Below, in pieces: positions 2,277 to 16,198 of a stretch of 52,795 nucleotides of DNA (positions are counted from its first letter, which is position 1; every line of letters starts with the position of its first letter). The notes beneath the pieces were generated by a model. That model saw only the letters and a list, made by a program, of their open reading frames with translations, made no database searches and was not told where the DNA came from. The position numbers were made by a program, and so were the translations under genes. Where the stretch lies: positions 1-52,795 of the forward strand of contig JAPPGK010000029.1 in assembly GCA_028821405.1 (NCBI GenBank), given 5' to 3'. The stretch is from Gammaproteobacteria bacterium (GTDB lineage: Bacteria; Pseudomonadota; Gammaproteobacteria; Pseudomonadales; Azotimanducaceae).

Positions 2277-2370
2277 GGGACGGGCCCAGGGGCGGTGGGG
2301 ACCGGGGCCAGACGGCGACGCAACGAGCAGTCTGGCGCGTAGTACCCGGCGCGGCGCCTGCGGCCGGTGC

Positions 2371-2391
2371 GGGCGACCACGAGGGTCGCCC
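2371..2391. repeat. Palindromic repeat between convergent genes
   Basis: GGGCGACC (2371-2378) pairs perfectly with GGTCGCCC (2384-2391) around a 5-nt loop. It lies between the argZ-like and ankyrin genes. No T-run follows, so a Rho-independent terminator is not supported. It matches the core of the dispersed GGCGACC/GGTCGCC repeats seen at 39871, 49355 and 51011. Confidence 0.6.
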
Positions 2392-2434
2392 CAAAGCAAA
2401 GCCCTCAGCAAGTTAGCGCTTATGAGGGTCGCGT

Positions 2435-4081
2435 TTACAGAGGCGAGGCACGCGTGAGCAGTTCGAGGATCTCCGCCGTTGAGTCGTCGCGGGCGATGTC
2501 CATGAGGCGGCGTCCTTCAACGTCGGCAAGGTCGACGCGGGCACCGCGTGCGAGGAGCAGCCGAACCGCCGACGGACGCTTTCGCAGAACGGCGAATGCC
2601 AGGGGCGTCTGCCAGTCCGCTTCGTGGGTACCGGCGCCGGCTCGCTCGTCGCCGATCGTCTTCTCGAGCAAGGACGGATCGTCATCCAGCAGCGAACCCA
2701 CGCGATCCGGGTTGTCCACCAATATCGCGTCGAAGACGCCGACGTGCAGATTCCCGAGGTGCTCGACGACATCCGAGCTGCCAGCCGTCATCGCCCATTG
2801 CAGGGGCGTCGCCGCGTGGTGGTTATCGCGCACACCCAACGACGCGCCTTTCGCAAGCAGCAGTTCCACCATCGCCAAGTGGCCCTGAAAGGCCGCCTGG
2901 TGCAGCGGCGCGACATCGGCGAGGCGACCGAGATCGAACCCTAAGTCCGCCATCACCTGAACCGCTGCCAAACGATTCGAAGCCGCGGCGTCGACCACGA
3001 GATCGGGCTCCGCCTGCTGGACGCGTTCGACAAGACCGGGTCCGTTCTCAACCATCCGCCGCGCCGTCTCGGCATCGCCGGCCAGGCAAGCCCCGATCAA
3101 ACGCGCCGAGGCGTCGAGATCCGGCGTTTCGGCACCGTGATCCGCCAGGTAGCGGGCGAGGTCGGTATGCCCCGCCCGCACGGCCGCTTCGTACAGCGTT
3201 CTACCGTCCGACGTTCGACCCGTCACGTCGGCACCGTGGTCGATCAAGAGCTTGGCGCGTTCCACATGGTGCTTCGGGACGGCCCAGTTCAACTGGTAGT
3301 CGAGGGTTCGATCCGGATTCTCGGTGTATTCGCCGTCTTCCCGGGCCCAACGCCAGTTGTTCCGATGTTCATGGGTGAGGCCGTGGTCGAGGAGCATGGC
3401 GAGACACTCGTGGCCCGGCGTGAACATGGTGTTGTAGAGCGCTTGGCCGTCGTTGGGGTGGGCACCCGCGTCGAGCAGCAGTCCCGCCAGCGCCAGCCAG
3501 TGTTCGTGGGGAGGCTGGTTGACGGGACCCATCTCGCCCTCGCCGAAAGCGCCGGTCAGCGCGGTAAACCGGTATTGGCCGCCCCACATGTAGTGGCCGT
3601 TGGGATCGGCACCGCGCGCAAGCAGAAGCCCGGCGACACCCAACGTCGAATGACCCGGCACCTCGAGGCGCGAATAGCAGGCGTAGAGCAGCGGTTCCCA
3701 GTCGAAATAGCCGCCGCGTCGGTTGACCAATGTCGGATCCTCGTCGAGGAAGCGCGCCACCGCTCCCACGTCGCCGACGCAGGCGGCGGACCAGACGTCC
3801 CGGGTAGCGAGGGCGGGGTCCTTCGCGAGCATCGCGCGGGCACGATCGCGGTTCTCGGGGCGGTCGGTCTGGAAGTAGACCAAGCAACTGAGCATCAGGA
3901 AGTCGGCGTTGTCTCCCGGGTGCGTCGCGTAGGCTTCGAGTTGACGCCAAGTCCCGAACCCGTATGCCGTCGCGACGGCATGGCGGGCTTCGGCGGTCGT
4001 CGTCTTTTGGTTCGACTCGTAGGACGCCACCCGAGCGTGCACTTCGTCGATTGGCTGGCCCCACGGCATTTGTTTCGGCAT
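2435..4081 (-). CDS. Ankyrin-repeat protein
   Basis: A 548-residue protein with no evident signal peptide or membrane segment. After a ~90-residue N-terminal helical part, it carries many ankyrin-type units marked by LLLxxGAxxN, LLIDHGADVTGR, LARYLADHGAE, PLHQAAFQGHLAMVELLLAKGA and LAFAVLRKRPSAVRLLLARGARVD. Ankyrin stacks bind protein partners, and no enzymatic domain is visible. The start ATG (MPKQMPWGQ) is the first methionine of the frame, and the gene is divergent from the TldD-like gene across a 151-bp gap. Ankyrin proteins are common in animal- and sponge-associated bacteria, but also in free-living ones, so a host role is only a possibility. The partner is unknown. Confidence 0.85.
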   Translation of the reverse strand: MPKQMPWGQPIDEVHARVASYESNQKTTTAEARHAVATAYGFGTWRQLEAYATHPGDNADFLMLSCLVYFQTDRPENRDRARAMLAKDPALATRDVWSAACVGDVGAVARFLDEDPTLVNRRGGYFDWEPLLYACYSRLEVPGHSTLGVAGLLLARGADPNGHYMWGGQYRFTALTGAFGEGEMGPVNQPPHEHWLALAGLLLDAGAHPNDGQALYNTMFTPGHECLAMLLDHGLTHEHRNNWRWAREDGEYTENPDRTLDYQLNWAVPKHHVERAKLLIDHGADVTGRTSDGRTLYEAAVRAGHTDLARYLADHGAETPDLDASARLIGACLAGDAETARRMVENGPGLVERVQQAEPDLVVDAAASNRLAAVQVMADLGFDLGRLADVAPLHQAAFQGHLAMVELLLAKGASLGVRDNHHAATPLQWAMTAGSSDVVEHLGNLHVGVFDAILVDNPDRVGSLLDDDPSLLEKTIGDERAGAGTHEADWQTPLAFAVLRKRPSAVRLLLARGARVDLADVEGRRLMDIARDDSTAEILELLTRASPL

Positions 4082-4232: not shown

Positions 4233-6071
4233 ATGGTTCCAAGCGGCTATCTTGGATTGGCCCACCGGGGCTCCGGCGCCAACGCCGTAGGGGCGGGGCT
4301 TGTCCCGGGCCGAGCCGGCGGCTCCACCGCCGTTCATGTCTCCGGCGACCGCGAAGTTCGCCCCCGTGGGTTCTTCGCTTACCGTGCGGCGTGGGCCTGG
4401 TGTGCGGCAGCGAGTCTTCTCGCGCTCGGCGTCGCCGCCGAGAGCAGTGTGCTCAAGGCCATGAAGTCGGAACTCGACCGGTCCATGGAAGTGCTCGGCG
4501 AGCAACCCGTGCCGCCCTATTTCCTGAGCTACGAGATCACCGAAACGAAGCGCATCTCGGCCGGGGCGCAATACGGCGCATTGACGTACAGCCGGAAAAA
4601 CCACGCCCGGATGCTGGACATCGACCTGCGCGTGGGGGACTACGCCCTCGACAATACGCGACCCTTGCGGGAGCAGAACTCCTTGTCGTTCTTGAACATC
4701 AACCTGGTCGAGGCGCCGGTCGAGGACGACGCGGATGCGATCCGCGCCCTGCTCTGGTCGGAGACCGACAAGCGCTACAAGCGGGCACTTGAGGAACTCA
4801 CCACCGTGAAGACCAATGTGCAGGTGAAGGTGGAGGCGGAGGACAAGGCCGGCGACTTCTCGCCCGAAGAGCCCTCCGAGAGCATCGAGGTCGAGCGGCC
4901 CATCGAAGCCGACATTGCCGCTTGGGAGCACAAGGTCGAGCGCTACACGGAACCCTTCTCGCGATACGGGGAGTTCTACGACGGACGCGCCTCGTTCTCC
5001 GCCACAACCGAGACGCGCTGGTTCGTGAACAGCGACGGCTCGCGAATCCAAACCTCGGAGACGTTGTATCGACTATTCGTCTCGGCCCTGACCAAGGCGG
5101 ACGACGGCATGGAGCTGCCCCTTTATCAGAGCTACATCGCCTTGACCCCTGCGGGGCTGCCGGACGACGAAACCGTGGAACGCGACGTGGCCAAGATGAT
5201 CGACACCTTGCGCGCGCTCCGCGAAGCACCGCTGGTGGAACCCTACACGGGCCCGGCAATCCTCGCCGGCGAGGCGAGCGGGGTCTTTTTCCACGAGATC
5301 CTCGGACACCGCCTGGAAGGGCATCGCCAAAAGCTCGAGGACGAAGGCCAGACGTTCAAGAAACTGCTGAACGAACGCGTGCTGCCGGAGAACTTCTCGG
5401 TGCATTTCGACCCGACGATGACGCGGCACGGCGGGACGGATCTCGTCGGCACCTATCGGTTCGACAATCAGGGCATAAAGGCGCGCCGGGTCACGGTGAT
5501 CGACAAGGGCATCCTCAAGGGCTTCCTCTTGTCCCGAAGGCCAATCGACGGCTTCCCCAATTCCAACGGGCATGGCCGCAAACAGGCCGGCTTCCGTCCT
5601 GTCGCCCGGCAGTCCAACCTGATCGTGGAAGTCACCAACCCGCTGACCAGCGAAGAGCTCAAGGCAAAGTTGCTGGCTGCCATCGAAGCGGAGGGCAAGC
5701 CGTTCGGTCTGCGTTTCGAAGCCATCCAAGGGGGCTTTACGACAACCGGCCGCTTCATGCCGAACTCCTTCAACGTGACGCCGCTGGTCGTCTATCGCGT
5801 CTACCCGGATGGGCGCGAGGAACTGGTCCGGGGAGTCGACCTGATCGGGACGCCGCTTACGACCTTTAGTCGCGTGGCTGCCGGTGACGATCAGATCGCC
5901 GTGTTCAACGGTACCTGCGGTGCCGAATCGGGCGGTGTGCCCGTTTCCGCTTCATCGCCAAGCATCCTGGTGTCCCAGATCGAGGTGCAGAAGAAGGAAA
6001 AGTCGCAGGAGCGGCCACCGTTGCTCCCCGCGCCGCTCGGGGACGACCGTTTGGGTTTCTCGATCTACTAG
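4233..6071 (+). CDS. Secreted TldD-like metalloprotease with intact HExxxH site
   Basis: A 612-residue TldD/PmbA-family protein. TldD with TldE (PmbA) forms a processive zinc protease that acts on unfolded peptides. Here His354-Glu355-His359 in GVFFHEILGHRLEG give the HExxxH motif, and the late NGTCGAESGG supplies the Cys typical of TldD. It differs from cytosolic TldD in having a hydrophobic segment at ~47-69 (AWCAAASLLALGVAA), which reads as a signal peptide or anchor and suggests a periplasmic enzyme. The ATG is preceded by GGGAGG eight bases upstream, yet ~45 residues precede the hydrophobic stretch. Part of that extension is encoded by a dispersed repeat at 4287-4310. The next gene, a paralog lacking the motif, starts 18 bp after the stop, so they probably form one operon and one complex. 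Confidence 0.85.
   Translation: MVPSGYLGLAHRGSGANAVGAGLVPGRAGGSTAVHVSGDREVRPRGFFAYRAAWAWCAAASLLALGVAAESSVLKAMKSELDRSMEVLGEQPVPPYFLSYEITETKRISAGAQYGALTYSRKNHARMLDIDLRVGDYALDNTRPLREQNSLSFLNINLVEAPVEDDADAIRALLWSETDKRYKRALEELTTVKTNVQVKVEAEDKAGDFSPEEPSESIEVERPIEADIAAWEHKVERYTEPFSRYGEFYDGRASFSATTETRWFVNSDGSRIQTSETLYRLFVSALTKADDGMELPLYQSYIALTPAGLPDDETVERDVAKMIDTLRALREAPLVEPYTGPAILAGEASGVFFHEILGHRLEGHRQKLEDEGQTFKKLLNERVLPENFSVHFDPTMTRHGGTDLVGTYRFDNQGIKARRVTVIDKGILKGFLLSRRPIDGFPNSNGHGRKQAGFRPVARQSNLIVEVTNPLTSEELKAKLLAAIEAEGKPFGLRFEAIQGGFTTTGRFMPNSFNVTPLVVYRVYPDGREELVRGVDLIGTPLTTFSRVAAGDDQIAVFNGTCGAESGGVPVSASSPSILVSQIEVQKKEKSQERPPLLPAPLGDDRLGFSIY
4287..4310 (+). repeat. Dispersed GTAGG repeat copy, in frame inside the TldD-like gene
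   Basis: The sequence GTAGGGGCGGGGCTTGTCCC and its following GGGC resemble the complement of the copies at 13081-13107 (GTAGGCGACAGGCTTGTCCC) and 51121-51152 (GTAGGCGACGGGCCTGCCCC). It codes for about residues 19-26 of the TldD-like protein (AVGAGLVPG) without breaking the frame. Confidence 0.55.
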
Positions 6072-6089
6072 CCGAGCGGAGTCGCCGCC

Positions 6090-7859
6090 ATGAAGAGAAT
6101 CGCATTCACTACGCCCGGCATCGTCCTGGTGCTGGCATTGCTCCCGACCATCGCCCATGGGGACGAGGACGCGTTGATGCAGGCGATGCGTGCCGAACTG
6201 GCCCGCAGCGTCGACGACCTCCAGATGGAGGATATGGACAAGCCCTACTTCGTCGCCTACACGATCACCGACACCCAGCGGTTGACCGCCAGCGCGAGTT
6301 TCGGGGCCCTGCTGCCGAGTTATGAGAGCCGAGCCCGGGGATTGAGCGTCGAGGTTCGCGTCGGTGACGCCTCGTTCGACAACACGAACTTCCGCTCCAT
6401 GAGTGCGTTCTCGGGTTTCGGGGGCGGTACGACGCTGCCCTTGGACGACAATGTCGTCGAGATTCGACGCCAGATCTGGCTCGCCACCGACGCGGCCTAC
6501 AAGGACGCGCTGCAACAACTCGCGAACAAGCGTGCCGCGCTGCAGAACGAGACAAGGGTCGAAGACCTCGCCGATCTCGCGGCGCAGGAGCCGTTCACCT
6601 ACGTCGACGAACCGAATCGAAACGTCCCGACCCTTGACGACATGAAGGATCTTGTTCGCCACCTTTCCGGATTGTTCCGGGACATGCCGCAGATTGCGGA
6701 CTCGCGCGTGGTGGCTGGCGTCACCTACCGGCGCACCTACTACGTCAACAGCGAGGGCTCGTCCTTCATCCGTACCGATCCGGCGGCCTCCCTGACGGTA
6801 CGCGCCCAAGCGCAAGCCGAGGATGGAACGATCCTGCACGACTTCGTGACCACCAACGGACTCGTGTGGGACGACGTGAGCGCCAGCGACGCCCTCGAGG
6901 CAGAGGTCAAGGCGATGGGAATGGCGGTCAGCGCGCGCGTGTCAGCTCCGAAGCTGGATGAGAGGTACACGGGGCCGGTGTTGTTCGAAGGACAGGCCGC
7001 CGCGGAGCTCTTTGCCCAGGTCTTCGTACCGAGGCTCCTCGGCACCCGCATGCCGGACACCGAATCCCAGTTTTCAAGCTTCATGAGCCAATCCCGGAAC
7101 CCGTTCCTGGACAAGCTGGGTGCCCGGGTGCTGCCGAGGTTCTTGAACCTCAAGGACGACCCGACACTGGCGGGCGACGGGTTCGTCGGGGGCTATGGCG
7201 TCGACGACGAAGGCGTACCGGCGAGCGCCACTTCCCTGGTGGAAAGAGGCATCCTGAAATCCCTGCTGACCACGCGCAACCCGGTCCAGGGCATCGAGGC
7301 CAGCACGGGGAACCGGCGCGGCGGCGGGCCCGTCCCCAGCAACCTGGTGATGACCACCGACCGCGGAATGGCCCGCGAGGAGTTGCTCCACGAGTTCAAG
7401 TTGCTGATGGCGGAGCGCGAGGCCGAATACGGCATCGTCGTTCGCCGCCTCGGCAACCCCCTGTTCAGGCCGTCGACAGGCAACAACATCTCGATCAACT
7501 TCGGCGGGCCGGCGCAGCAGCAAGCCAGCGTCGAACCCGCGCTCCTAGCCTACCGGGTCTACGCGGACGGGCGCGAGGAACTCCTCCGAACGGTCGAGCT
7601 GGCCGCCGTCACCGATTCGGTGTTCAAGGAAATCATCGCGGTGTCGGACTCGCCGACCACCTACACATTCACTCACTCGCCCGCGTCCTTCGGGGGCCTC
7701 GGCACGATCATCATGATCGGCGCTTCGGGGTTCTCCTCATCTCTACACGCGGTCTCGGTCTCCGTGCCCGACCTTCTGTTCGAGGAGATGAGCGTCCGCA
7801 ATCCAACGGGCAACCTCCCGCACCGACCCGTCGCAGGGCACCCGTTCTTCGAGGAGTGA
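6090..7859 (+). CDS. Secreted TldD/TldE-like paralog without the metal-binding motif
   Basis: A 589-residue protein aligned along its length with the preceding TldD-like protein: PYFVAYTITDTQR, YYVNSEGSSFIRTD, YTGPVLFEGQAAAELF and LLAYRVYADGREELLR have counterparts there. Where the neighbour has HEILGH, this one reads AQVFVP, and the late Cys motif is absent, so it should not bind the catalytic zinc. Residues 1-24 (MKRIAFTTPGIVLVLALLPTIAHG) are a clear signal peptide ending near AHG, placing it in the periplasm. GCGGAG lies just upstream of the ATG. In the known TldD/TldE heterodimer one subunit also lacks the metal site, so this pair may be a periplasmic counterpart. It converges on the membrane operon with only 7 bp between. 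Confidence 0.8.
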   Translation: MKRIAFTTPGIVLVLALLPTIAHGDEDALMQAMRAELARSVDDLQMEDMDKPYFVAYTITDTQRLTASASFGALLPSYESRARGLSVEVRVGDASFDNTNFRSMSAFSGFGGGTTLPLDDNVVEIRRQIWLATDAAYKDALQQLANKRAALQNETRVEDLADLAAQEPFTYVDEPNRNVPTLDDMKDLVRHLSGLFRDMPQIADSRVVAGVTYRRTYYVNSEGSSFIRTDPAASLTVRAQAQAEDGTILHDFVTTNGLVWDDVSASDALEAEVKAMGMAVSARVSAPKLDERYTGPVLFEGQAAAELFAQVFVPRLLGTRMPDTESQFSSFMSQSRNPFLDKLGARVLPRFLNLKDDPTLAGDGFVGGYGVDDEGVPASATSLVERGILKSLLTTRNPVQGIEASTGNRRGGGPVPSNLVMTTDRGMAREELLHEFKLLMAEREAEYGIVVRRLGNPLFRPSTGNNISINFGGPAQQQASVEPALLAYRVYADGREELLRTVELAAVTDSVFKEIIAVSDSPTTYTFTHSPASFGGLGTIIMIGASGFSSSLHAVSVSVPDLLFEEMSVRNPTGNLPHRPVAGHPFFEE

Positions 7860-7866
7860 TCCGACC

Positions 7867-8682
7867 CTATTCGCCTTCGGCGGTGTGGGTCTTCGGCCAC
7901 GGATCGCTGCGAACCGTGTACGCGCCGAACATGCCTTCGATGAGCTTGTCGTGGGCCTGCTGCCACCGCGCCTTGGCGTGCGGTGAGGTCAGGTCCCAAA
8001 CGCGCACCCAGAACACGCAGGAATAGCTTCGTACCCGCTTCGACTTTCCCGCCTCGTGGATTGGATTCAGGTGTCTGACGACCTGCCTATCCGTCAGGCG
8101 TACACCATAGGGGATCGCGCCGAATCCCAGACGCTCGGCCTCATGGGCGAAGCTCCCGCCGTTGTCGTCGTCCGCCCCACCTGGGGGCGTGGCCGGGCGA
8201 CGTATGACGATCGCGTCGTCGAACACGCCGAGATTGAACGAGTAGTACGGCTTCTCGCGCGTGCCGTCGCCGTCCGCTCGCGGTACAACGCGATACCAAC
8301 AGGGAGGGTTGTGGCCCTTGGCGTGGAACACGCGCAGTTCCTGGATCGCCTCCTCGGCTCGGCGTTCGGCCTCTTGTGCCACCCGCACCGCCTCGGCAGC
8401 GGCACCGTCCTCCTTGGCCAGCACGTCGCGGAGTGCTTCGTTCTGCCGCCGGTGTCTTTCGGCTGCCTGCTCGGCACGTTCCTTGTCGCGCTTGAGCGTC
8501 ACCACTTCGTCCGGCGTTTCGAACGCCTCGGTTATCGGACGCCATTGCTCCATGGCAACCAGTTCATCGCGCATCTCTTCGGCAGCCGCCGTTTCCAACT
8601 CGTGCTCGCGGTCCCAGCTCTGAGCCAAGGCAAGGAACGCCAACAGGATCAGAAACAGCAGGAGGATGAAGATCTCGGCCAT
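7867..8682 (-). CDS. MotB/ZorB-position protein: N-terminal membrane anchor, coiled coil and C-terminal globular domain
   Basis: A 271-residue protein, last gene of the four-gene operon. It opens directly with a membrane helix (MAEIFILLLFLILLAFLALA, residues 1-20), then a charged helical stretch to ~125 (RDKERAEQAAERHRRQ, AQEAERRAEEAIQEL). A globular domain at ~130-265 follows, with KGHNPPCWYRV, YYSFNLGVFDDAIVIRR and YSCVFWVRVWDL. An N-terminal helix followed by an extracytoplasmic domain is the layout of MotB/ExbD/ZorB subunits that pair with MotA-type channels, but I see no OmpA-type peptidoglycan motif, so the role is inferred from position and topology. The open frame extends ~330 nt further upstream. 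I chose the ATG at 8682 because the membrane helix begins there and AGGA precedes it. It starts 50 nt after the channel gene. Confidence 0.7.
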   Translation of the reverse strand: MAEIFILLLFLILLAFLALAQSWDREHELETAAAEEMRDELVAMEQWRPITEAFETPDEVVTLKRDKERAEQAAERHRRQNEALRDVLAKEDGAAAEAVRVAQEAERRAEEAIQELRVFHAKGHNPPCWYRVVPRADGDGTREKPYYSFNLGVFDDAIVIRRPATPPGGADDDNGGSFAHEAERLGFGAIPYGVRLTDRQVVRHLNPIHEAGKSKRVRSYSCVFWVRVWDLTSPHAKARWQQAHDKLIEGMFGAYTVRSDPWPKTHTAEGE

Positions 8683-8732
8683 GGTCAGTCCTAAGACCGT
8701 TCCGCGCCGATAGGCAGCGTCGGGCCCGGCGG

Positions 8733-10304
8733 TCAACGGGACGTTCCGGTGCCGCCCGTCGTCGGCGACTTGGATTCCCGGAGGGGAGTGGGGCGACGCA
8801 AGAGCCAGCCCCCGGTTGGTCTGTTGTCGGTCTTCGTTGAAGGCTCGAGTTCCTCGGGAACGCGCGCCGCAGTCTCCTGCACGGCCCCCTCGGGACCACT
8901 CGCGGCTGGACCTCGCACAACGGACTCCTCCGGACCAGTCGCCGCAAGTTCCTTGACGGCTTGGACGGCCTCGCCCAGGGCGTCTCGCAAGGGGGCGGCT
9001 TCGTCGGTCCACGACCGGACCTCGCGCGTGGCCAATTCGGTCAGGGCGTTGGTTGTTTCCGTGTTCCGATCCGCAGCCTCCTGCTGCCGGGCAATCGCGG
9101 CGTTGAGGTGCTCTATTGCCTCCGGTAGTGCGTTGCCGGCGGCTTCCAACTGGCGAGCCATTGCGGCGAAGTCATCGATGCTGCGACGCAGCTCGTCGAT
9201 TCCGTTCTCCTGGTACTTCCTGACGTTTTCGGCCAACGTCCGGTGGCCCTCGACGATGCCAGCGACGCGGCTGTCGAGGTCGCCGCCGATCAATCTCGCC
9301 GTGTCTCCCAGCGCTTGCACGCGACCGTCCGCCTCAACCAGATTGCCGGTGAACGTCAGCAAGCCGTCGTTGATCGCGGCGAGCTGGTGGATGATCGCAT
9401 CCACGGCCGCGCTCGTTCGCCGCACATCCTCCCTCGTCGACTCGGAAGCTGCTTGCGCTTCTTCGGCTAGACTTCGCCAAGACGTTTCGGCTCGGCTCGT
9501 TGCCTCGCTAACGGCGCGGTCGAACCGCTCGACGACCGTGGCGGTCTGTGATCGTACTTTTTCGGCCGTCTCCTGCCAGGCAGCCGCGGTGGCGTCCAGA
9601 CCAGCCTGCGCCTGTTCACCCGCAGTCGCCGCCAGTTCCCGCCAAGCTGCCGCCGTGTCCCGCAGGCCATCCTGGGCTTGTGTTTCGAGGCGTTCGTTGA
9701 ACTCCCGCGACAGCACTTGTGTGTGGGTCTTTGTCTGATCGGCCTGGGTCAGCGTCATCCGGGTGAAGTGGGAGAAGGCATTTCTGGCTTCCCGTAACTC
9801 ATCGCGGAGCGCCCGCATGGATTCCGCGAACTCCGCATGAACCGCTTCATCAACGAGACCAGTGCCGTGCACGGGCTCCTCTTGCCCTTTCGTCCCGTCT
9901 TCGCCGACGATTTCCTCCTTGGGCGGCTCTCTGGACCGGTCTTGCAGAAGGATGCGACCGACGATGCCGGCGACGGTAGAGAACAGCGCGATGCCGAAGT
10001 TGCCGATGAGCCCATGGGTCCGGGCTTCGAGTTCCTCGGCGGGGTTCCAGACGAACAACTGCCATAGCGCAATGCTGAGCGACACCAACGTGAAAAGCAG
10101 GCCGAGGTAGTAGAGGTCGTCCCCGGCCTGGTGCGAATCCACATCGGCTTGTTTCCCGTAGTAGATGCCCAAGACCGTAATTGCCGCGATCGCCGCTACG
10201 ACGGCGACAACTGCGCCCGCCAACCCCGACACAATCCACCGCGACAGCACGATTGCCACCACGCCGGTGACCAACGCGGTCAGGAACGGTCGCTTGCCGC
10301 CCAC
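8733..10304 (-). CDS. MotA/ExbB/ZorA-like membrane channel with long cytoplasmic helical tail
   Basis: A 523-residue protein. The first ~120 residues hold about four hydrophobic segments (~7-22, 23-48, 66-85, 98-120). The last pair, YYLGLLFTLVSLSIAL and LIGNFGIALFSTVAGIVGRI, resembles the core helices of MotA/TolQ/ExbB ion channels. Residues ~165-470 are an Ala/Glu/Arg-rich helical region (AAAWRELAATAGEQAQAG repeated as AAAWQETAEKVRS), then a Pro/Ser-rich tail. A channel core with a long tail is how ZorA of Zorya defence systems is built. The GTG at 10304 is preferred over the ATG at 10388: its first base overlaps the upstream stop (TAGTG), AGGAG lies 8 nt before it, and it removes an 84-nt overlap. 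Function as an ion-driven motor is inference. Confidence 0.75.
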   Translation of the reverse strand: MGGKRPFLTALVTGVVAIVLSRWIVSGLAGAVVAVVAAIAAITVLGIYYGKQADVDSHQAGDDLYYLGLLFTLVSLSIALWQLFVWNPAEELEARTHGLIGNFGIALFSTVAGIVGRILLQDRSREPPKEEIVGEDGTKGQEEPVHGTGLVDEAVHAEFAESMRALRDELREARNAFSHFTRMTLTQADQTKTHTQVLSREFNERLETQAQDGLRDTAAAWRELAATAGEQAQAGLDATAAAWQETAEKVRSQTATVVERFDRAVSEATSRAETSWRSLAEEAQAASESTREDVRRTSAAVDAIIHQLAAINDGLLTFTGNLVEADGRVQALGDTARLIGGDLDSRVAGIVEGHRTLAENVRKYQENGIDELRRSIDDFAAMARQLEAAGNALPEAIEHLNAAIARQQEAADRNTETTNALTELATREVRSWTDEAAPLRDALGEAVQAVKELAATGPEESVVRGPAASGPEGAVQETAARVPEELEPSTKTDNRPTGGWLLRRPTPLRESKSPTTGGTGTSR

Positions 10305-11080
10305 TAGACCGACTCCTGCCAGATGACTTCGCCCCCTAAGGATTGCACGAGCTTGGTCCACCAGTAGTAGTGGTCCTTCGTCTGCCACCGCGCATCGCGG
10401 GCTCGTTCCAGCCGATACAGACTGGCCTCCACGCCTGTGAGGTCGACCTTGAGATGCCGGAGTCCGGCCGATCTGCCAACCGCTTCAGCCGCCGGGTGCT
10501 CTCCGTAGTGGGAAAGGTCGTCGGAGTGCTGCAAGAGGTCCGAGTAGATGATGAGGTGGGTCCGCGACTTCGATTCCATGCGGGAACTCGGCACATGCCG
10601 GGGGACGACTACCCCGAGGAACTCGATGATCGGCGATCGCGCCTGCGCGGACGAGTCCTTCGCGGCGAACAGCGGCTCGACGCTCTCCTGAAATCGCTGC
10701 CAGCGGCGCAACGCGATGGCCTTGCCCTCCGTGAGTTCGCGTTTCCACGTCCAGTCGTCGGGCCGGTCCCCGGGATTGCAGACGCGTATCCGAGGTTCGA
10801 CTTGGGCGAGATCCTGCGTCAGCTCGTAGACGACCAGTGCCTCACCCGGGCGGATGCGGAAGTCCGGCGGACCATCGGGTTCCTGCAACTCCTTTACCAG
10901 CCTCGCGAAGACCTCGCGCTGCTTGGGATTCAACGGATCGGAGGTGTCCAGCAGGAGGATGGTTGTGCGCGTGGGTGCCTGCCCCACCGGACAGAGGTTC
11001 TCGTCGAGCCGGACGCGGTCGCAGGCCGCGAGTGCCAAAACGAGCGGGACGGCCGCGAGGCCGAAGCGCGCGCCCGTCAC
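10304..11080 (-). CDS. Inner-membrane lipoprotein with von Willebrand A-like features
   Basis: A 258-residue protein with a lipoprotein signal (VTGARFGLAAVPLVLALAAC). The lipid-bearing Cys20 is followed by Asp, the classical retention signal that keeps lipoproteins in the inner membrane. The mature part has two strand-plus-acid motifs expected of a vWA-type fold: TTILLLDTSDPL (residues 39-50, with a partial DxSxx metal site) and HLIIYSDLLQHSDDL (175-189). These suggest a periplasmic metal-dependent binding module. The GTG start at 11080 overlaps the upstream stop (GTGA), which argues against the much longer open frame reaching 11416. Its stop overlaps the channel gene start, so the three genes are translationally coupled. 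The vWA assignment is tentative. Confidence 0.68.
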   Translation of the reverse strand: MTGARFGLAAVPLVLALAACDRVRLDENLCPVGQAPTRTTILLLDTSDPLNPKQREVFARLVKELQEPDGPPDFRIRPGEALVVYELTQDLAQVEPRIRVCNPGDRPDDWTWKRELTEGKAIALRRWQRFQESVEPLFAAKDSSAQARSPIIEFLGVVVPRHVPSSRMESKSRTHLIIYSDLLQHSDDLSHYGEHPAAEAVGRSAGLRHLKVDLTGVEASLYRLERARDARWQTKDHYYWWTKLVQSLGGEVIWQESV

Positions 11081-12492
11081 GCGTCGCGCCCGTCGCCGTC
11101 GAGCTCTTCGAGCGTCGGGTACTTGCGAGCGGCCTTGCCGTATTCGTCCCGGAGTACCTCGACGGCGCCGTGAACGTGTTCCATCATGTCGTTGAGTTTG
11201 GTTGGCGGCGGCGGACTGAACGCGGGTGGCGTGTCGACCACCCCCGCGTCGAGGGACACCGGCGTTCCGAAATGTCGCGGCACCGGTTCCATTCTCGCCG
11301 CTCGATTGGCCGCTCGGTACTCCGCGACAAGGTGGTTCAGATCGTGCGGATACTGGCCCAAGTTGACCTCGTATTCGTCGACCAAGTGCTGTCCGCGGAC
11401 GCAGATGTCCTTCCACGCGCTTTGCTTGATCTTGAGGCCCTCGCGGCGGTCCTCCAGCTGCGACGCGAATTGGTCGTGTACGTTCTTCAGATCCCGTTGG
11501 GCGGTGTCGTACCGCTCGATGTAGTTGTCCCGCAGGGTTTGGAATTGGCGGTGCCGGCGACCGTAGTCGGGATACGGGTCATCGCGCTGCAGCCATTTCC
11601 ACGATGCGATGCAGAAGAACAGGAACCCGAGCAGCGCGAGGAGGTACGACTGGAACGAATCCAGGGCCGCCGCGTTCGCCAGGAACCTGTCCACCACGTC
11701 GGTTCCCAAGGCGAGTATGTCGGCGCCGGGATCATTGATGATCGCCTGCATGCTGTCCCTGAAGTGCCCGATCGCCAAGTTGAACGCGACGGTCGTCCCA
11801 AGCAGAACGACGATGCCAATCCACGCCAGGGACCTGCGCGTGACGCCAACGTGGTTGCGTTGGCGCAGCAGGAAGCCCATCGCCAAACCCGCGGCAAATA
11901 TGTTCACGAAGCTGATGAGCGCCATCTGGATGCTCGAACCCACTAGGCCGAATGCATTGACCTCCATCAACAACGTCGCGTTCAGGACGATCTCGACGAC
12001 GAAGCACGTGAGAATCACAGGCAGCGACCATCGGCGGTGGGAGTAGTCGGCCTGGCGTGTCAGTCGTGCACGGCGTCGAAACGCCCGGAAATCCGCGGTG
12101 TCTTCCCGGACCGCTTCCTTGGCGCCCAACAGCAAATGGCCCCCCCTTTCGACCTGTCCGCCCAACGCCAATTCGCCGTCCCTGCCAATCTCACTCACCT
12201 CCAACTTCAAGTCCGCGAGATCTTGGTCACTCTCGATGTCGGTGAGTTCGCGTTCAAGATCGGCCAGGTGGTCACTCACATTGCGGCGGCACACCCGAGC
12301 GCGGAGGTTCACCCACGCGAGAATCTTCTCCTCCGTGGCATCCAGCCCGTCGACGTCGGGTGCGGGCAGGTTCGCGGCGCCTTGGCGACGACCCTCTTCG
12401 CGTATGGCATGCTTGGCGAGCCACGCTTCGAGGTCGAGCTGGACGTACCGTTCCTTGACCTCGTCGAAGCCGGGTTCGTTGTCCCAATCCAC
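11077..12492 (-). CDS. Unrecognised four-helix membrane protein with coiled-coil flanks
   Basis: About 471 residues, first gene of the four-gene operon. The N-terminal ~150 residues are charged and helical (HLADLERELTDIESDQDLADL). Four hydrophobic segments follow at roughly 155-177, 185-210, 222-242 and 278-298 (ILTCFVVEIVLNATLL, ALISFVNIFAAGLAMGFLL, WIGIVVLLGTTVAFNLAIG, SYLLALLGFLFFCIASW). A DDPYPDYGRRHRQ motif comes next, then another helical stretch and a Pro-rich tail. I do not recognise the family. The GTG at 12492 has AAAGGA seven bases upstream. An in-frame ATG at 12528 is the alternative and has a weaker site. The stop overlaps the lipoprotein start. Large soluble helical flanks suggest an assembly or sensor role beside the channel, which is inference. 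Confidence 0.65.
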   Translation of the reverse strand: MDWDNEPGFDEVKERYVQLDLEAWLAKHAIREEGRRQGAANLPAPDVDGLDATEEKILAWVNLRARVCRRNVSDHLADLERELTDIESDQDLADLKLEVSEIGRDGELALGGQVERGGHLLLGAKEAVREDTADFRAFRRRARLTRQADYSHRRWSLPVILTCFVVEIVLNATLLMEVNAFGLVGSSIQMALISFVNIFAAGLAMGFLLRQRNHVGVTRRSLAWIGIVVLLGTTVAFNLAIGHFRDSMQAIINDPGADILALGTDVVDRFLANAAALDSFQSYLLALLGFLFFCIASWKWLQRDDPYPDYGRRHRQFQTLRDNYIERYDTAQRDLKNVHDQFASQLEDRREGLKIKQSAWKDICVRGQHLVDEYEVNLGQYPHDLNHLVAEYRAANRAARMEPVPRHFGTPVSLDAGVVDTPPAFSPPPPTKLNDMMEHVHGAVEVLRDEYGKAARKYPTLEELDGDGRDA

Positions 12493-12705
12493 TCGCCGTC
12501 CTTTTGCCGTAATCCGTTGCCGAAGCATAGCAGCACCCTCGCCCTCGGACTTGTGGGGAGCGTCGACGGCTTCGCGGATCCGATGGCCGATTCTCGGTTA
12601 GCCGGGTCCAACCGGAACCTGCCGACGCGGGTGTCAGCGCATTCGTTCTTCCCGGTTAGGCGTCCGGCAGGGGTCCCATATCCCAACGGCGGTCGCGTGA
12701 CTCGA

Positions 12706-12734
12706 GACCTGGCAACAAGTGCTATTGTCAGGTC
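12706..12734. promoter_or_regulatory. Probable autoregulatory operator of the Phd-type antitoxin gene
   Basis: GACCTGGCAACA (12706-12717) and TATTGTCAGGTC (12723-12734) are inverted repeats matching at 10 of 12 positions around 5 nt. The site ends 23 nt before the antitoxin ATG. Phd/YefM antitoxins usually repress their own promoter through such palindromes. Confidence 0.5.
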
Positions 12735-12757: not shown

Positions 12758-13027
12758 ATGGAAACGCGGTTCTCCGAGGAAGTCGTACCGTTGACCGATC
12801 TAGGGACCAATCCAGGATGGATCGTCAGGCATACGGCAGAAACCGGCCGGCCGGTATTGCTGACCCGACGCGGGCGCGGTGTTGCCGTCGTGCAGTCAGT
12901 GGCGGAATACGAGTCCGCTGCCGAGGAGAGCGCTTTCATGCGCGCCGTGATCTCAGGGCTCGCGGACATCGTGGCGGGTCGCGAGGTGTCTTTGCGCGAG
13001 GCGAAGACACACCTAGGGCTCGAATGA
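12758..13027 (+). CDS. Phd/YefM-family antitoxin (orphaned)
   Basis: An 89-residue protein with the Phd/YefM pattern: VVPLTDLGTNPGWIVRHTAETGRPVLLTRRGRGVAVVQSVAEYE, a DNA-binding N-terminal half that also forms the dimer, followed by a C-terminal helix that would wrap the toxin. Such antitoxins block a RelE/ParE- or Doc-type partner and repress their own operon. An inverted repeat fits this just upstream. The toxin gene should follow 4 nt after the stop, but only its first ~16 codons remain. The antitoxin is therefore likely an orphan that still controls itself or protects against related toxins elsewhere. Both claims are inference. Confidence 0.8.
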   Translation: METRFSEEVVPLTDLGTNPGWIVRHTAETGRPVLLTRRGRGVAVVQSVAEYESAAEESAFMRAVISGLADIVAGREVSLREAKTHLGLE

Positions 13028-13031
13028 CGTC

Positions 13032-13080
13032 ATGTCGGATGTCGCAGTCCGCTTCGCGGAGTCTGCCGTCGCGGATCTTT
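13032..13080 (+). pseudogene. Remnant of a RelE/ParE-type toxin gene, cut by a dispersed repeat
   Basis: Directly after the antitoxin stop an ATG opens MSDVAVRFAESAVADL, which looks like the first strand and helix of a RelE/ParE toxin (typically xVxFTESAxxDLxxI). Homology then ends exactly where the repeat GGGACGGGACAAGCCTGTCG begins. The frame continues only into the antisense of the S46 peptidase gene. About 75-80 residues with all catalytic positions are missing. Confidence 0.6.
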
Positions 13081-13107
13081 CCGGGACGGGACAAGCCTGT
13101 CGCCTAC
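13081..13107 (-). repeat. Dispersed GTAGG repeat copy at the broken toxin
   Basis: On the minus strand this reads GTAGGCGACAGGCTTGTCCC followed by GTCCCGG, closely related to the copies at 51121-51152 and 4287-4310. It joins the toxin remnant to the 3' end of the S46 peptidase gene, whose TAG stop (13104-13106) lies within the repeat. Confidence 0.6.
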
Positions 13108-15296
13108 TGAACCACCGTCATCTCGTCGATCAGCCAGTCGGCGTTGTCGATCTTCTCCATCACCCACAGCATGTAGCGGGTATCGACGTGGATCGTTCGT
13201 GTGTTGCGGGGGTTGAAGTCCCAGTCCGAGACGACGCTCTCTAGGGTGCCGTCGAACAATAGGCCCACGAGTTCGCCGTTGGCGTTGAGCGTCGGGGAGC
13301 CCGAGTTGCCGCCGGTGGAGTCGAGATCGGTGAGGAAGTTCACCGGGACGGAGCCGATGGATTCGAGCCGGTAGGCACCGTGGTCCTTGGCGCGGGCGCG
13401 TTCGAGGAGCCCGACTGGCGCATTGAACGGCGCGATGCCCGAGTCCTTTTCGAGGATGCCTTCGAGGCGGGTGAACGGTTCGTAGATGAGGCCGTCCATC
13501 GGCGATCCGCCGAGAACGGTGCCGTAGGTGATGCGCAGCGTGCCGTTGGCGTCGGGGTACGTGGTCTGGCCCTGCGATCGCTGCCAGTCGATGATGGCCT
13601 GCATGTATTGCGGGCGCAGGAGGTGGCCACGCCCGCTGCGGGTCTTGCCGGCCTCTTCGCGTGCCATGTCCGAGTCGTAGACGGCGGTGGCCAGACGCAG
13701 GAACGGATCGTCGTGTTCCTCGAGCGCCGTGGCGGTCGCGTCCATCAAGGAAAGACGCGTCTCGGCATCCTCCAGCACGGTGTTGGCGTAGTAGGCGTCG
13801 AGTATCGACGACAAGGTGGCCTCGTCGGTGTCGTCGGCAAGCCCGAGCGCTTCGTCAAAGGCCCCGACGCGGTTTTCGTCGGGCTCTGCGAGATAGCCGC
13901 GCAGGGCGTACATCCACAACGCCTTGTCCACAGTGGCGTGGTAGCGGCGATCCAGGCGACTCAGTCCCTGGCGGAAGAATCGCAGGTCCCGCTCCTGGTA
14001 GCCCGGTTCCCGCTCGGCGTCCGGTTTCTCCTGCTCGCGAGCCAGCCGGTAGAGCCGGCGGGCGATACCGAACAGTTGCGAACCACGGGCCGCGTTGTAG
14101 TGGTAGTAGCGCCTGCTCGCCGCCGCGTTCTCCCGGGCCAGCGCGTCGTAGCCCCGGATCGCGTCCGCAAGTTGACCCTTGCCGGCGTTGTCGCCAATCC
14201 ACGCGTCGAGCGCGGCATCGCGTTGGGCACGGCGCTCGACGAGTCGCTGCCGGCGCGCGCCTTCAAGCTGACCTTCGCGGTTCTTCATGCCATTGTTGAT
14301 GCCCGCCAACTGGCCCGTATAGCGGATGCGCAAGTCGCTTCCCTCCGGGGCGGCGGCTTCGATCACGGCAATCCGTTCACGGCTTCTCGCCACAGACCGG
14401 GGGTACTCCCGCTCGAAAAGGTTCTCCACGGTCACATGGCGGGCATAGCGCGACGTGCCGCCGGGATAGCCGAGCGCCATCACGAAGTCGCCGTCGTCGA
14501 GCCCGGCGGCCGATACGGCGAGGTGGTGCTCGGGCTCATAGGGCACGTTGTCCGGCGAGTGGTCCGCGGGTTCGCCCGCCGGCGACACGTAGGCCCGGTA
14601 GAAGGCGAAGTCGCCCGTGTGGCGCGGCCAGCGCCAATTGTCGACGTCGCCGCCGTAACGGCCGACGGCGTCCGCCGGCGCGTAGACGAGACGCACATCG
14701 CGGATTTCGAGGTACTTGATCCGCTTGTATTGCAGACCGCCGAAGAAACTGCTTACCCGGCACCGATGACCCGGGTCGGACTCGCATTCCTTCATGACGG
14801 CCTTGCGTCGGTCTTCCATCGCCTGGTAGCGGTCGCGAGGCGCAAGTGCGGGATCGAGATCCCCGGCGATGCGCGCCGTCACGTCCTCGGCGTCGAGGGC
14901 CACGTAGACCCGGGCACCCGGCGGCGCGGGGAGTTCGTCCGCCATGGACGCGGCCAGGAATCCCTCTTCGAGGTAGTTGCGCTCGGGTTTCGAATGGAAC
15001 TGCACCGAACCGCGGGCGCAGTGATGGTTGGTGACCACCAGCCCTTGGGGCGACACGAACGACGCGGTGCAACCGCCGAGCGAGACCACCGCGGCCATGG
15101 GGAACGCCGTTAGGTCGTTGAGCTTGTCGGGGTGGAGCTTCAATCCGGCTTCGCGCAGATCGGCGGCGATGGCCGGCAGTTGATCCGGCGTGAACATCCC
15201 CTCGCGGGCATGCGCAACAACAGACCAAGACGCGATGGCAGCCACGAGGGCCCAACCGGAAACGCTACGTAGGAAATCCGCCATTTGTCTGTTCAT
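13104..15296 (-). CDS. S46-family dipeptidyl-peptidase (DPP7/DPP11-type), secreted
   Basis: A 730-residue protein, the usual size for S46 peptidases, which release dipeptides from peptide N-termini in the periplasm. A signal peptide spans ~1-30 (VAAIASWSVVAHA). The trypsin-like triad is visible: His92 in VTNHHC, Asp217 or Asp219 in YGGDVDNWRWPRHTGDF and Ser665 in GGNSGSP. Between the halves lies the helical insertion expected of the family. Whether it prefers hydrophobic (DPP7) or acidic (DPP11) residues cannot be read safely here. The ATG overlaps the stop of the preceding helical protein gene (ATGA), so the two are coupled. It extends the leuS-lptE-holA block, and may feed peptide use. Confidence 0.92.
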   Translation of the reverse strand: MNRQMADFLRSVSGWALVAAIASWSVVAHAREGMFTPDQLPAIAADLREAGLKLHPDKLNDLTAFPMAAVVSLGGCTASFVSPQGLVVTNHHCARGSVQFHSKPERNYLEEGFLAASMADELPAPPGARVYVALDAEDVTARIAGDLDPALAPRDRYQAMEDRRKAVMKECESDPGHRCRVSSFFGGLQYKRIKYLEIRDVRLVYAPADAVGRYGGDVDNWRWPRHTGDFAFYRAYVSPAGEPADHSPDNVPYEPEHHLAVSAAGLDDGDFVMALGYPGGTSRYARHVTVENLFEREYPRSVARSRERIAVIEAAAPEGSDLRIRYTGQLAGINNGMKNREGQLEGARRQRLVERRAQRDAALDAWIGDNAGKGQLADAIRGYDALARENAAASRRYYHYNAARGSQLFGIARRLYRLAREQEKPDAEREPGYQERDLRFFRQGLSRLDRRYHATVDKALWMYALRGYLAEPDENRVGAFDEALGLADDTDEATLSSILDAYYANTVLEDAETRLSLMDATATALEEHDDPFLRLATAVYDSDMAREEAGKTRSGRGHLLRPQYMQAIIDWQRSQGQTTYPDANGTLRITYGTVLGGSPMDGLIYEPFTRLEGILEKDSGIAPFNAPVGLLERARAKDHGAYRLESIGSVPVNFLTDLDSTGGNSGSPTLNANGELVGLLFDGTLESVVSDWDFNPRNTRTIHVDTRYMLWVMEKIDNADWLIDEMTVVQ

Positions 15297-16198
15297 GGGG
15301 GGTCGCCCAACGCGGCGTCCACTTTCCGCCGTTCACCCTGGTACCAGGTCGTCAGCGACGCTTCGGACCATGCCTCGGCGAGTTCGTCGGCCGTGGCGAG
15401 CTCTTCCTCTGCGGATGCCGTCTCGGCCAGTCCGATGTAGGACCTGGCGGCAGCCAGTCGGATGAAGGCCTCGTCCACGGGCTCTTCGCCGTTCGCCGCG
15501 ATCACATCGAGTGCCGCGCGGGCATTTTCCAGCCCGGAGCGGTACGCCTCGACGCGGTTGTTCACCAGCGCCAGCAGGTACAGGGCGCGTTCCTCGTTGA
15601 CCCAGGTTCCGCAACGCTTCCAGAACGTGTGCGCGGCGTCCGCGCAGTCCATCATGAGCCGAGTCTGGTCCGCGTGCAGTTCATCGGATTCGAGCAAGTC
15701 GCTCGCCAGGTTGTTGTTGGCGATGGCCATGCCGCGGTTCGAGGTGGCAGCGTCGCCGAGACCTGCCGCCAGCCGATTGGCCGCGGCGATGACCATGCCG
15801 GCATCGGCGAACCGCCCCGTGCCGGCAAGCGCGCCGGCCAGAGACGACTTGACGGTGAGATAGGCGTCGAGGTGGTGTTCCGCGGCGCCGAGGCATTCGA
15901 TCTCGGCCTGTTGGGCGGCCACCGTGTCGCCGTCCATGTAGCGAGCGACCGCCAGATGCGCGCCGAACCCGGCCTCGGCCGGGCAAGCCGCCGTCGCTTC
16001 GCGAACCGCCTCCGCAAACCGCCGGGCTCGCGGCCAGTCGCGCAAGTGCTCGCCGATCGTGTGGTTAGAGAGGCGCAGGCAGTGCGCCAGCACCTCGCCT
16101 TTCAACCCGTCGAGGTTCGCGGCCTCCAACTCGCCGGCGAGCCGCTCGCTCTGGGTGTCGTGATAGCCCCAGCCATCGCGTATCAGGTCGCTGATCAA
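15293..16198 (-). CDS. Unrecognised helical (possibly TPR-like) protein
   Basis: A 301-residue soluble protein rich in Ala and paired helices (GLKGEVLAHCLRLSNHT, ARRFAEAVREATAACP, AGLGDAATSNRGMAIANNNLA, EEELATADELAEAWSEA), which suggests a TPR-type solenoid. I found no catalytic motif and do not recognise the family. The open frame extends into holA in another frame. I place the start at the TTG at 16198 because GGAGGG lies 3 nt upstream and the helical protein begins there, 22 nt after the holA stop. The spacing is short, so this start is uncertain. Its stop overlaps the S46 peptidase start. Confidence 0.6.
   Translation of the reverse strand: MISDLIRDGWGYHDTQSERLAGELEAANLDGLKGEVLAHCLRLSNHTIGEHLRDWPRARRFAEAVREATAACPAEAGFGAHLAVARYMDGDTVAAQQAEIECLGAAEHHLDAYLTVKSSLAGALAGTGRFADAGMVIAAANRLAAGLGDAATSNRGMAIANNNLASDLLESDELHADQTRLMMDCADAAHTFWKRCGTWVNEERALYLLALVNNRVEAYRSGLENARAALDVIAANGEEPVDEAFIRLAAARSYIGLAETASAEEELATADELAEAWSEASLTTWYQGERRKVDAALGDPP

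Follow-up and report, generated by a model that had tools for sequence, protein, structure and literature searches.

The stretch of DNA under study, termed the window, comprises 52,795 nucleotides of contig JAPPGK010000029.1 from a gammaproteobacterium of the Azotimanducaceae. Its positions 7867–12492 are occupied by four minus-strand genes that form an operon of membrane proteins, termed P1, P2, P3 and P4 in their order in the operon, and each gene overlaps the next. In what follows, L numbers denote loci and G numbers genomes, and G000 is the window's own genome. The four genes are:

11077–12492, minus strand: P1, 471 amino acids (aa) from a GTG start; a soluble N-terminal region, four predicted transmembrane (TM) segments and a helical C-terminal region.
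10304–11080, minus strand: P2, 258 aa; an N-terminal signal and an extracytoplasmic domain.
8733–10304, minus strand: P3, 523 aa from a GTG start at 10304; four predicted TM segments, then a tail of ~400 residues; candidate channel of the MotA/ExbB/ZorA type.
7867–8736, minus strand: P4, 289 aa from a TTG start at 8736; candidate partner in the MotB/ZorB position, with a short cytoplasmic YRRG motif, one TM segment (E21 at its start), a coiled linker and a C-terminal PPCW...YxCxF domain.

The P1 and P2 genes overlap by GTGA (11077–11080) and the P2 and P3 genes by TAGTG, as reported in a preliminary description of this DNA. The same description placed a 50-nt gap before P4, which is the result of a start-codon error. 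A YR(R/Q)G..xGLTxAE peptide upstream of the earlier-called ATG is common to 10/10 aligned P4 proteins, and the nearest relative has ATG where the window P4 has TTG. The start of P4 is therefore placed at TTG 8736, over the P3 stop codon, and the P3/P4 overlap is TTGA. A simple hydropathy scan gives four TM segments for P1, one (N-terminal) for P2, four for P3 and one for P4, and this agrees with the four-helix protein and the single-pass protein originally described at the two ends of the operon. The GC (guanine plus cytosine) content of the operon is 0.642, which is not unusual compared with 0.661 for the remaining window.

P1-P2-P3-P4 are present on one strand and in the same order in all 39 complete non-duplicate loci from Pseudomonadota genomes and plasmids (35 fetched, plus five further plasmid loci, minus one duplicate). 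The four-gene operon first proposed from the window is thus real, and its genes occur together and in order across genomes. Outside the 39 are L104 and L116 (partial P3 matches), L067 (a duplicate of L066), and L003 and L020 (cut by contig ends). Not all of the 39 are independent, because P1 is at least 80% identical in three pairs (window–L016, L017–L018 and L159–L161).

P3 is a candidate MotA/ExbB-like channel, for which the support is modest. Residues D62, T72, S75, S109 and T110 are invariant in 23/23 aligned cores. The hhalign program places the P3 sequence YLGLLFTL...ALxSTvaGI (TM3/TM4) in register on the helices of seven MotA_ExbB proteins of the window's own genome (E = 0.0035, probability 9%; the P1 control gives 0.2%). 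These seven come from 10 places matched by PF01618; of the other three, the ZorA (L089) was compared separately and two fell below the cut-off and were not included. A phmmer search with P3 and profile searches with the P3 core and with P2 yielded nothing meaningful among PDB sequences. A MotA/ExbB-like channel with a helical tail had been proposed previously; the TM3/TM4 pattern in register and the tail of ~400 residues are in line with this, but the PF01618 model does not report P3.

P4 stands in the position of the motor partner. MotAB, ExbBD and TolQR are 5:2 ion-driven motors, and MotB usually carries an Asp in its membrane segment. A Glu is found at the TM start in 39/39 P4 proteins, two residues earlier in L103 (31/34 by pattern and L066, L105 and L110 by eye, with five more plasmid loci added). 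The C-terminus of P4 occurs in two forms, as detected with models built here: OmpA-type (27/39) and PPCW-type (11/39). The P4 of L057 is divided between two frames (2221–3216), and by eye the second of these ends in the PPCW type. The PPCW-type P4s are those of the eight complete loci of the window's own family, together with L057, L058, L069 and L103. The Pfam OmpA model passes its cut-off on P4 of L068 and L072, falls below it in L070 and gives no match in L066.

Some OmpA-type P4s resemble ZorB. P4 of L068 matches ZorB2 (PADLOC, 1.4e-27; NCBIfam, 7e-23, 81.9 bits, which is below the cut-off of 400), and two sets of OmpA-type P4s align to the ZorB of the window's genome, with scores of 87% for the set of 4 sequences and 44% for the set of 11. 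The pattern used for these sets found 15/20 sequences (11/12 and 4/8), and L068 is among those missed. The window P4 matches only one ZorB model (PADLOC ZorB1, 0.008). The PPCW domain was considered as a degenerate OmpA domain, and comparisons with the OmpA-type P4s and with the own-genome ZorB gave no support for this (0.05–0.15%). In the P1 tree (42 rows) the window's family is grouped together with support of 96/93 and the OmpA-type loci form two clades (89/77 and 98/98); the deep order and the rooting are uncertain. L108 shows a P3 frame that extends past the P4 frame.

The TM segments of P1 are predicted to span residues 157–297, and its polar residues E167, N213, N238, H243 and R245 are invariant in eight aligned near relatives. 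The N-terminal segment of P2 has a lipobox-like LALAAC sequence by eye; in distant relatives the P2 N-terminus resembles a TM anchor, also by eye. In the extracytoplasmic domain two Cys residues (C30 and C101), Asp45 and Asp181 are invariant in 19 homologues. The metal ion-dependent adhesion site (MIDAS) of vWA domains consists of D-x-S-x-S with a later T and D on a Rossmann-like fold. In the 19 P2 homologues the two Asp residues fit this pattern and an S or T is usually found two residues past Asp45, but the fifth MIDAS position is not Ser. When P2 was compared with vWA proteins of the window's genome (8 of 11 places, three without the motif by pattern being left out), hhalign gave 0.9% vs 0.6% for the control, and 0.2% when only near relatives were used. 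The window P2 had no match to any Pfam model, and no vWA match to P2 was found in Pfam models or PDB sequences. P2 had been described as a vWA-like lipoprotein: the lipobox-like sequence is consistent with the lipoprotein part, but the vWA likeness is one seen by eye and is not confirmed. L022 has a second P2 paralogue (8625–9452) after P4.

The P1-P2 pair is also found without P3-P4, in ten other loci (L059–L065 and L073–L075). Six of these were read by eye: L059 and L061 have NfeD and SPFH genes next to the pair, L064, L065 and L073 have a VirD4/TraG-like ATPase and a serine recombinase there, and L074 has neither kind of neighbour. P1-P2 looks like a reusable membrane module.

Nucleases are found fused to P4 or close to the operon in many of the relatives. 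A nuclease is fused or within 2 kb in 18/39 loci, and these make up 18 of the 31 loci outside the window's own family. Pfam identifies a fused GmrSD_C HNH domain on P4 of L068 and a fused SNase domain on P4 of L072. P4 of L112 has a segment resembling the L068 HNH segment and is a third fused nuclease by likeness (the HNH model was built from L068 and L112 and matches both by construction). All three nuclease-fused P4s are among the 27 of OmpA-type. In L057, L066, L069, L070, L071, L076, L077, L079, L081, L109, L110 and L114, and in the plasmid loci L159, L160 and L161, an SNase is encoded separately within 2 kb of the operon.

SNase family proteins are characterized by the motifs DGDT and RLxGIDAPE and by a later Arg. 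These motifs are kept with variations in nine aligned sequences. Ten entries were intended for the SNase model, and L072, which was out of frame, was dropped before building. By eye, 15/15 separate SNases have a signal- or anchor-like N-terminus, and the SNases adjoining the operon are apparently secreted. Across a set of 26 loci, 12 separate SNase genes are no more than 2 kb from the operon and one is farther away (L113); on position alone, p = 8e-7. A tally of Pfam families is the less biased test, because neighbours of the same loci served to train the SNase model. The tally covers up to two genes per side in 33 loci, as called in this analysis, with proteins of at least 110 aa and under 1000 aa, 126 in all. 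SNase is the commonest flanking family with 10/126 proteins, and the next family has 3.

The distribution of the operon is patchy. P4 was found in 10/97 near genomes with the own genome included, and in one of these (G002) only a remnant is present. The P2 profile has matches in 15/390 genomes of the order and 11/398 of the phylum, and the P3-core profile in 3/369 genomes of the class, 8/398 of the phylum, and 7/170 and 8/158 genomes of two other orders; these tallies include the own genome where it was searched as well as weak, unverified matches (e.g. G012 in the P2 tally, and G1342). Searches of plasmids matched 24 records with the window P1, 19 with the window P2 and 22 with P1 of L069, and none with the window P4 or with P1 of L073. 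Relatives occur in several Pseudomonadota orders and also on plasmids of rhizobia. In nine annotated plasmid records, of eleven read, the proteins are named as hypothetical, DMT transporter, methyl-accepting chemotaxis or OmpA family proteins.

One example will be used to show the mobility of the operon. L017 and L018, which are from two genera, have ~89% DNA identity in two blocks that together begin two bases ahead of the P1 start and end at the P4 stop codon; a blastn comparison of the two 20-kb stretches found nothing shared beyond these blocks. On this sequence comparison the operon moves as an isolated unit between genera. The site of the operon in the window's genus gives a second view. 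The window copy is flanked by TldD-like, Phd and S46 peptidase genes, and two features describe the site:

7858–12706: segment present in the window and absent from the same site in the congener G011, in which the matching blocks are 57 bp apart.
12758–13027, plus strand: Phd-type antitoxin gene, intact; the adjacent relE is mostly deleted (toxin-antitoxin stretch 12758–13110).

Between the tldD-like and S46 peptidase genes, G000 and G004 have the operon, G003 and G011 have only Phd or Phd-RelE, and G002 (L024) has a remnant consisting of the C-terminal part of P4, plus Phd-RelE. G006 and G009 were left out of this comparison, as no S46 gene was found beside their tldD-like gene. An intact RelE is present at the same site in two congeners (L153 and L024). 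The decayed toxin-antitoxin locus that had been noted beside the operon is therefore borne out, with Phd intact and most of relE missing. Two tandem TldD/PmbA-like genes flank the operon (4233–7859 of the window), and similar pairs recur in the genus.

Several relatives have genes of defence systems as neighbours. L018 has a type IIG restriction gene next to it, and a SNIPE/PD-Lambda-1 (DUF4041) gene adjoins L112 (12780–14207). In L160 a DUF4041 protein (13971–15446) that adjoins the SNase gene is identified as SNIPE by PADLOC (5.8e-170). Hhe/PDC-S37 is found ~3 kb from the operon in L066, STK_OB ~4 kb from it in L069, a WYL regulator less than 1 kb from L022, a PDC-S57 match near L114, and a UvrD-type helicase, of a widespread kind, adjoins L113.

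In searches with the window P1–P4 against Pfam, PADLOC and NCBIfam, the only matches were below curated cut-offs or in the helical tail. A match of all four proteins to one described family was not seen in these libraries, in accordance with the original suggestion of an undescribed system. The family scans also agree with the ZorAB-like layout then described, i.e. one without a ZorC, ZorD or ZorE partner and with two extra membrane components. No paper recognizable as describing the operon was found in the open-access literature searched, and the terms searched for in the main text of the DefensePredictor paper (PMC13092281) do not appear there.

The operon appears to encode an ion-driven machine of the inner membrane, akin to ZorAB and MotAB and most likely for defence against phage or plasmid DNA that enters through the envelope; we hold this reading with slightly better than even confidence. 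In the proposed mechanism P3 would form an oligomeric channel ring with its coiled tail in the cytoplasm, and P4 would be the axle, with Glu replacing the usual Asp, and reach into the periplasm. P1 and P2 would act as a membrane/periplasmic sensor or gate, such that the motor is switched on upon a breach of the envelope. The action of the motor may then position or activate a periplasmic effector, which in many relatives would be the nuclease fused to P4 or encoded beside the operon. The window's lineage has no attached nuclease, and there the peptidoglycan-binding-type domain would be replaced by the PPCW domain of P4. The sequences show the order of the genes and its conservation, the nucleases fused or adjacent in relatives, some neighbouring defence genes, horizontal movement, and presence or absence at one site; the channel, its oligomer and stoichiometry, the trigger or sensing step and the role in defence are what we infer. 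Sensing of a breach and action on DNA in the periplasm form the most economical reading, by analogy with Zorya and SNIPE; that the window copy, which has no nuclease, may do the same job is read from its relatives. The preliminary description had left sensing, defence and transport open. Defence is now favoured over the other two because of the nucleases and of some defence genes beside relatives. A tentative extension, on balance somewhat doubtful, is that the operon represents a distinct class of such ion-driven machines, separate from Zorya, that attacks foreign DNA at the periplasmic face of the inner membrane, with a conserved P1–P4 motor and sensor core and interchangeable effectors (SNase, HNH or, in the window, PPCW).

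A number of observations weigh against a role in defence. The missing nuclease in the window's lineage is among the largest gaps: a nuclease is fused or adjacent in 0/8 complete loci of the window's own family, and a search of the window's genome gave no SNase-family match. Outside this family 13/31 loci are also without a nuclease within 2 kb, so that a nuclease is not obligatory. Among the neighbours, which were hand-picked and without a matched control for enrichment, 8/18 had a PADLOC match and 10/18 had none (the control ZorA being left out). Defence genes lie beside or near some copies, type IIG, SNIPE and Hhe among them. The neighbourhoods of L080, L107, L108 and L115 look ordinary. No relative was found in the phage or viral-contig collections, where 44 and 76 pattern matches were not relatives. 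With respect to the motor itself, the alignment of P3 with the own-genome ZorA is not significant (0.4%), compared with 14% for the MotA_ExbB set against that ZorA, and P3 is not among the 10 places that PF01618 matches genome-wide at E ≤ 1.

An alternative that we consider unlikely, yet the best of the remaining ones, is a Tol-Pal/ExbBD-like machine for envelope maintenance or stress. Ions flowing through P3-P4 would drive a force on the wall or outer membrane, P1-P2 would be accessories, and the nucleases would be passengers in some lineages. The OmpA-type domain on 27/39 P4s, the NfeD and SPFH genes beside P1-P2 pairs without P3-P4 in L059 and L061, and the location of some loci among metabolic genes are in keeping with this. 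However, the presence in 8/398 phylum genomes (own genome included), the movement as an isolated unit between genera and the absence or decay at a fixed site are unlike a housekeeping system, and nucleases fused directly to P4 are difficult to see as passengers.

A machine for DNA transport or uptake, in which P1–P4 carry DNA or protein through the envelope while the SNase trims the DNA, is improbable. This would account for the VirD4/TraG-like coupling ATPase and serine recombinase beside P1-P2 pairs (L064, L065 and L073) and for a gene in L077, ~6 kb from P4, that is annotated as ComEC. However, the four-gene loci read showed no recognizable pilus, secretin or translocase ATPase; a nuclease on the periplasmic arm fits destruction more than uptake, and the mobility is like that of defence modules.

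It is very unlikely that the window's lineage retains only a decaying or non-functional remnant of the operon. Decay might be suggested by the TTG and GTG starts of the window genes and by a congener (L024) in which nothing but the C-terminal part of P4 is left at this site, but the four frames are open and overlapping, the nearest copy has 77%–94% protein identity to the window's four proteins, and family-invariant residues are kept. Slightly more remote still is antagonism or toxin delivery, with the motor exporting or activating a nuclease against other cells, since the swappable C-terminal nuclease domains on P4 and a gene annotated as VgrG ~1 kb from P1 in L162 are set against the lack of any immunity-like partner recognized by eye in the loci read, and against a membrane-anchored P4, often with an OmpA-type domain, which fits anchoring in the own cell.

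If defence against DNA entering through the envelope is the correct reading, motor-powered immunity extends from the cytoplasm (Zorya) to the periplasm, and the question is raised whether a proton-driven, stator-like complex can aim a nuclease at DNA crossing the envelope. The relatives on rhizobial plasmids and in several Pseudomonadota orders mean that tractable copies exist.

The operon can be compared with four kinds of known systems. With MotAB, ExbBD and TolQR it shares the pairing of a multi-TM with a single-TM gene and, as far as the modest alignment goes, the TM3/TM4 register of P3 with its invariant Thr/Ser residues; it differs in that P3 has no PF01618 match, a short TM2-TM3 loop and a long tail, and in the extra P1-P2. 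The GmrSD C-terminal domain and the SNase thermonucleases recur as nuclease domains on or beside P4 in relatives; there, however, they form modules attached to, or encoded close to, a motor partner, and the window copy lacks them. Passages of PMC13190303 describe SNIPE as a membrane nuclease that cuts phage DNA at entry or injection, and as a single protein whose nuclease is cytoplasmic. SNIPE (PD-Lambda-1, DUF4041 + GIY-YIG) has in common with the operon the theme of a membrane-associated nuclease, and its gene is beside the operon in L112 and L160; unlike the operon it has no motor, and no family was seen in common with P1–P4.

Zorya resembles the operon in layout, and, judged by sequence, the operon would work like a Zorya-type motor. 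Membership of the window operon in Zorya was considered and rejected, as there is no match in the ZorA core, Glu is found in place of Asp, and an OmpA-type domain and ZorC–G are absent while two new components are present. The window P3 matches ZorA models in the tail only (best 6.5e-6; NCBIfam ZorA, 0.11), compared with 1.3e-260 for the ZorA of the same genome. This ZorA (by PADLOC) belongs to a Zorya type I locus on contig C80 (L157, 223–7476), in which it is followed by ZorB-, ZorC- and Snf2 ZorD-like genes by eye. Because the same genome holds Zorya I, the window operon is not a mis-scored Zorya. The key Asp of the ZorB TM helix is D24 and is surrounded by conserved Ser/Thr residues of ZorA, according to a passage in PMC11890865. 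The likeness to Zorya lies in a channel-like protein with a long tail that is followed by a partner in the MotB position and, in relatives, in the OmpA-type domain on P4, the fused HNH nuclease of two loci and some defence-gene neighbours. In contrast to Zorya, P4 has Glu and not Asp, the window P4 is without an OmpA-type domain, P1 and P2 have no Zorya counterpart, no ZorC–G lie beside the window copy, and the nucleases of the relatives would lie on the periplasmic side.

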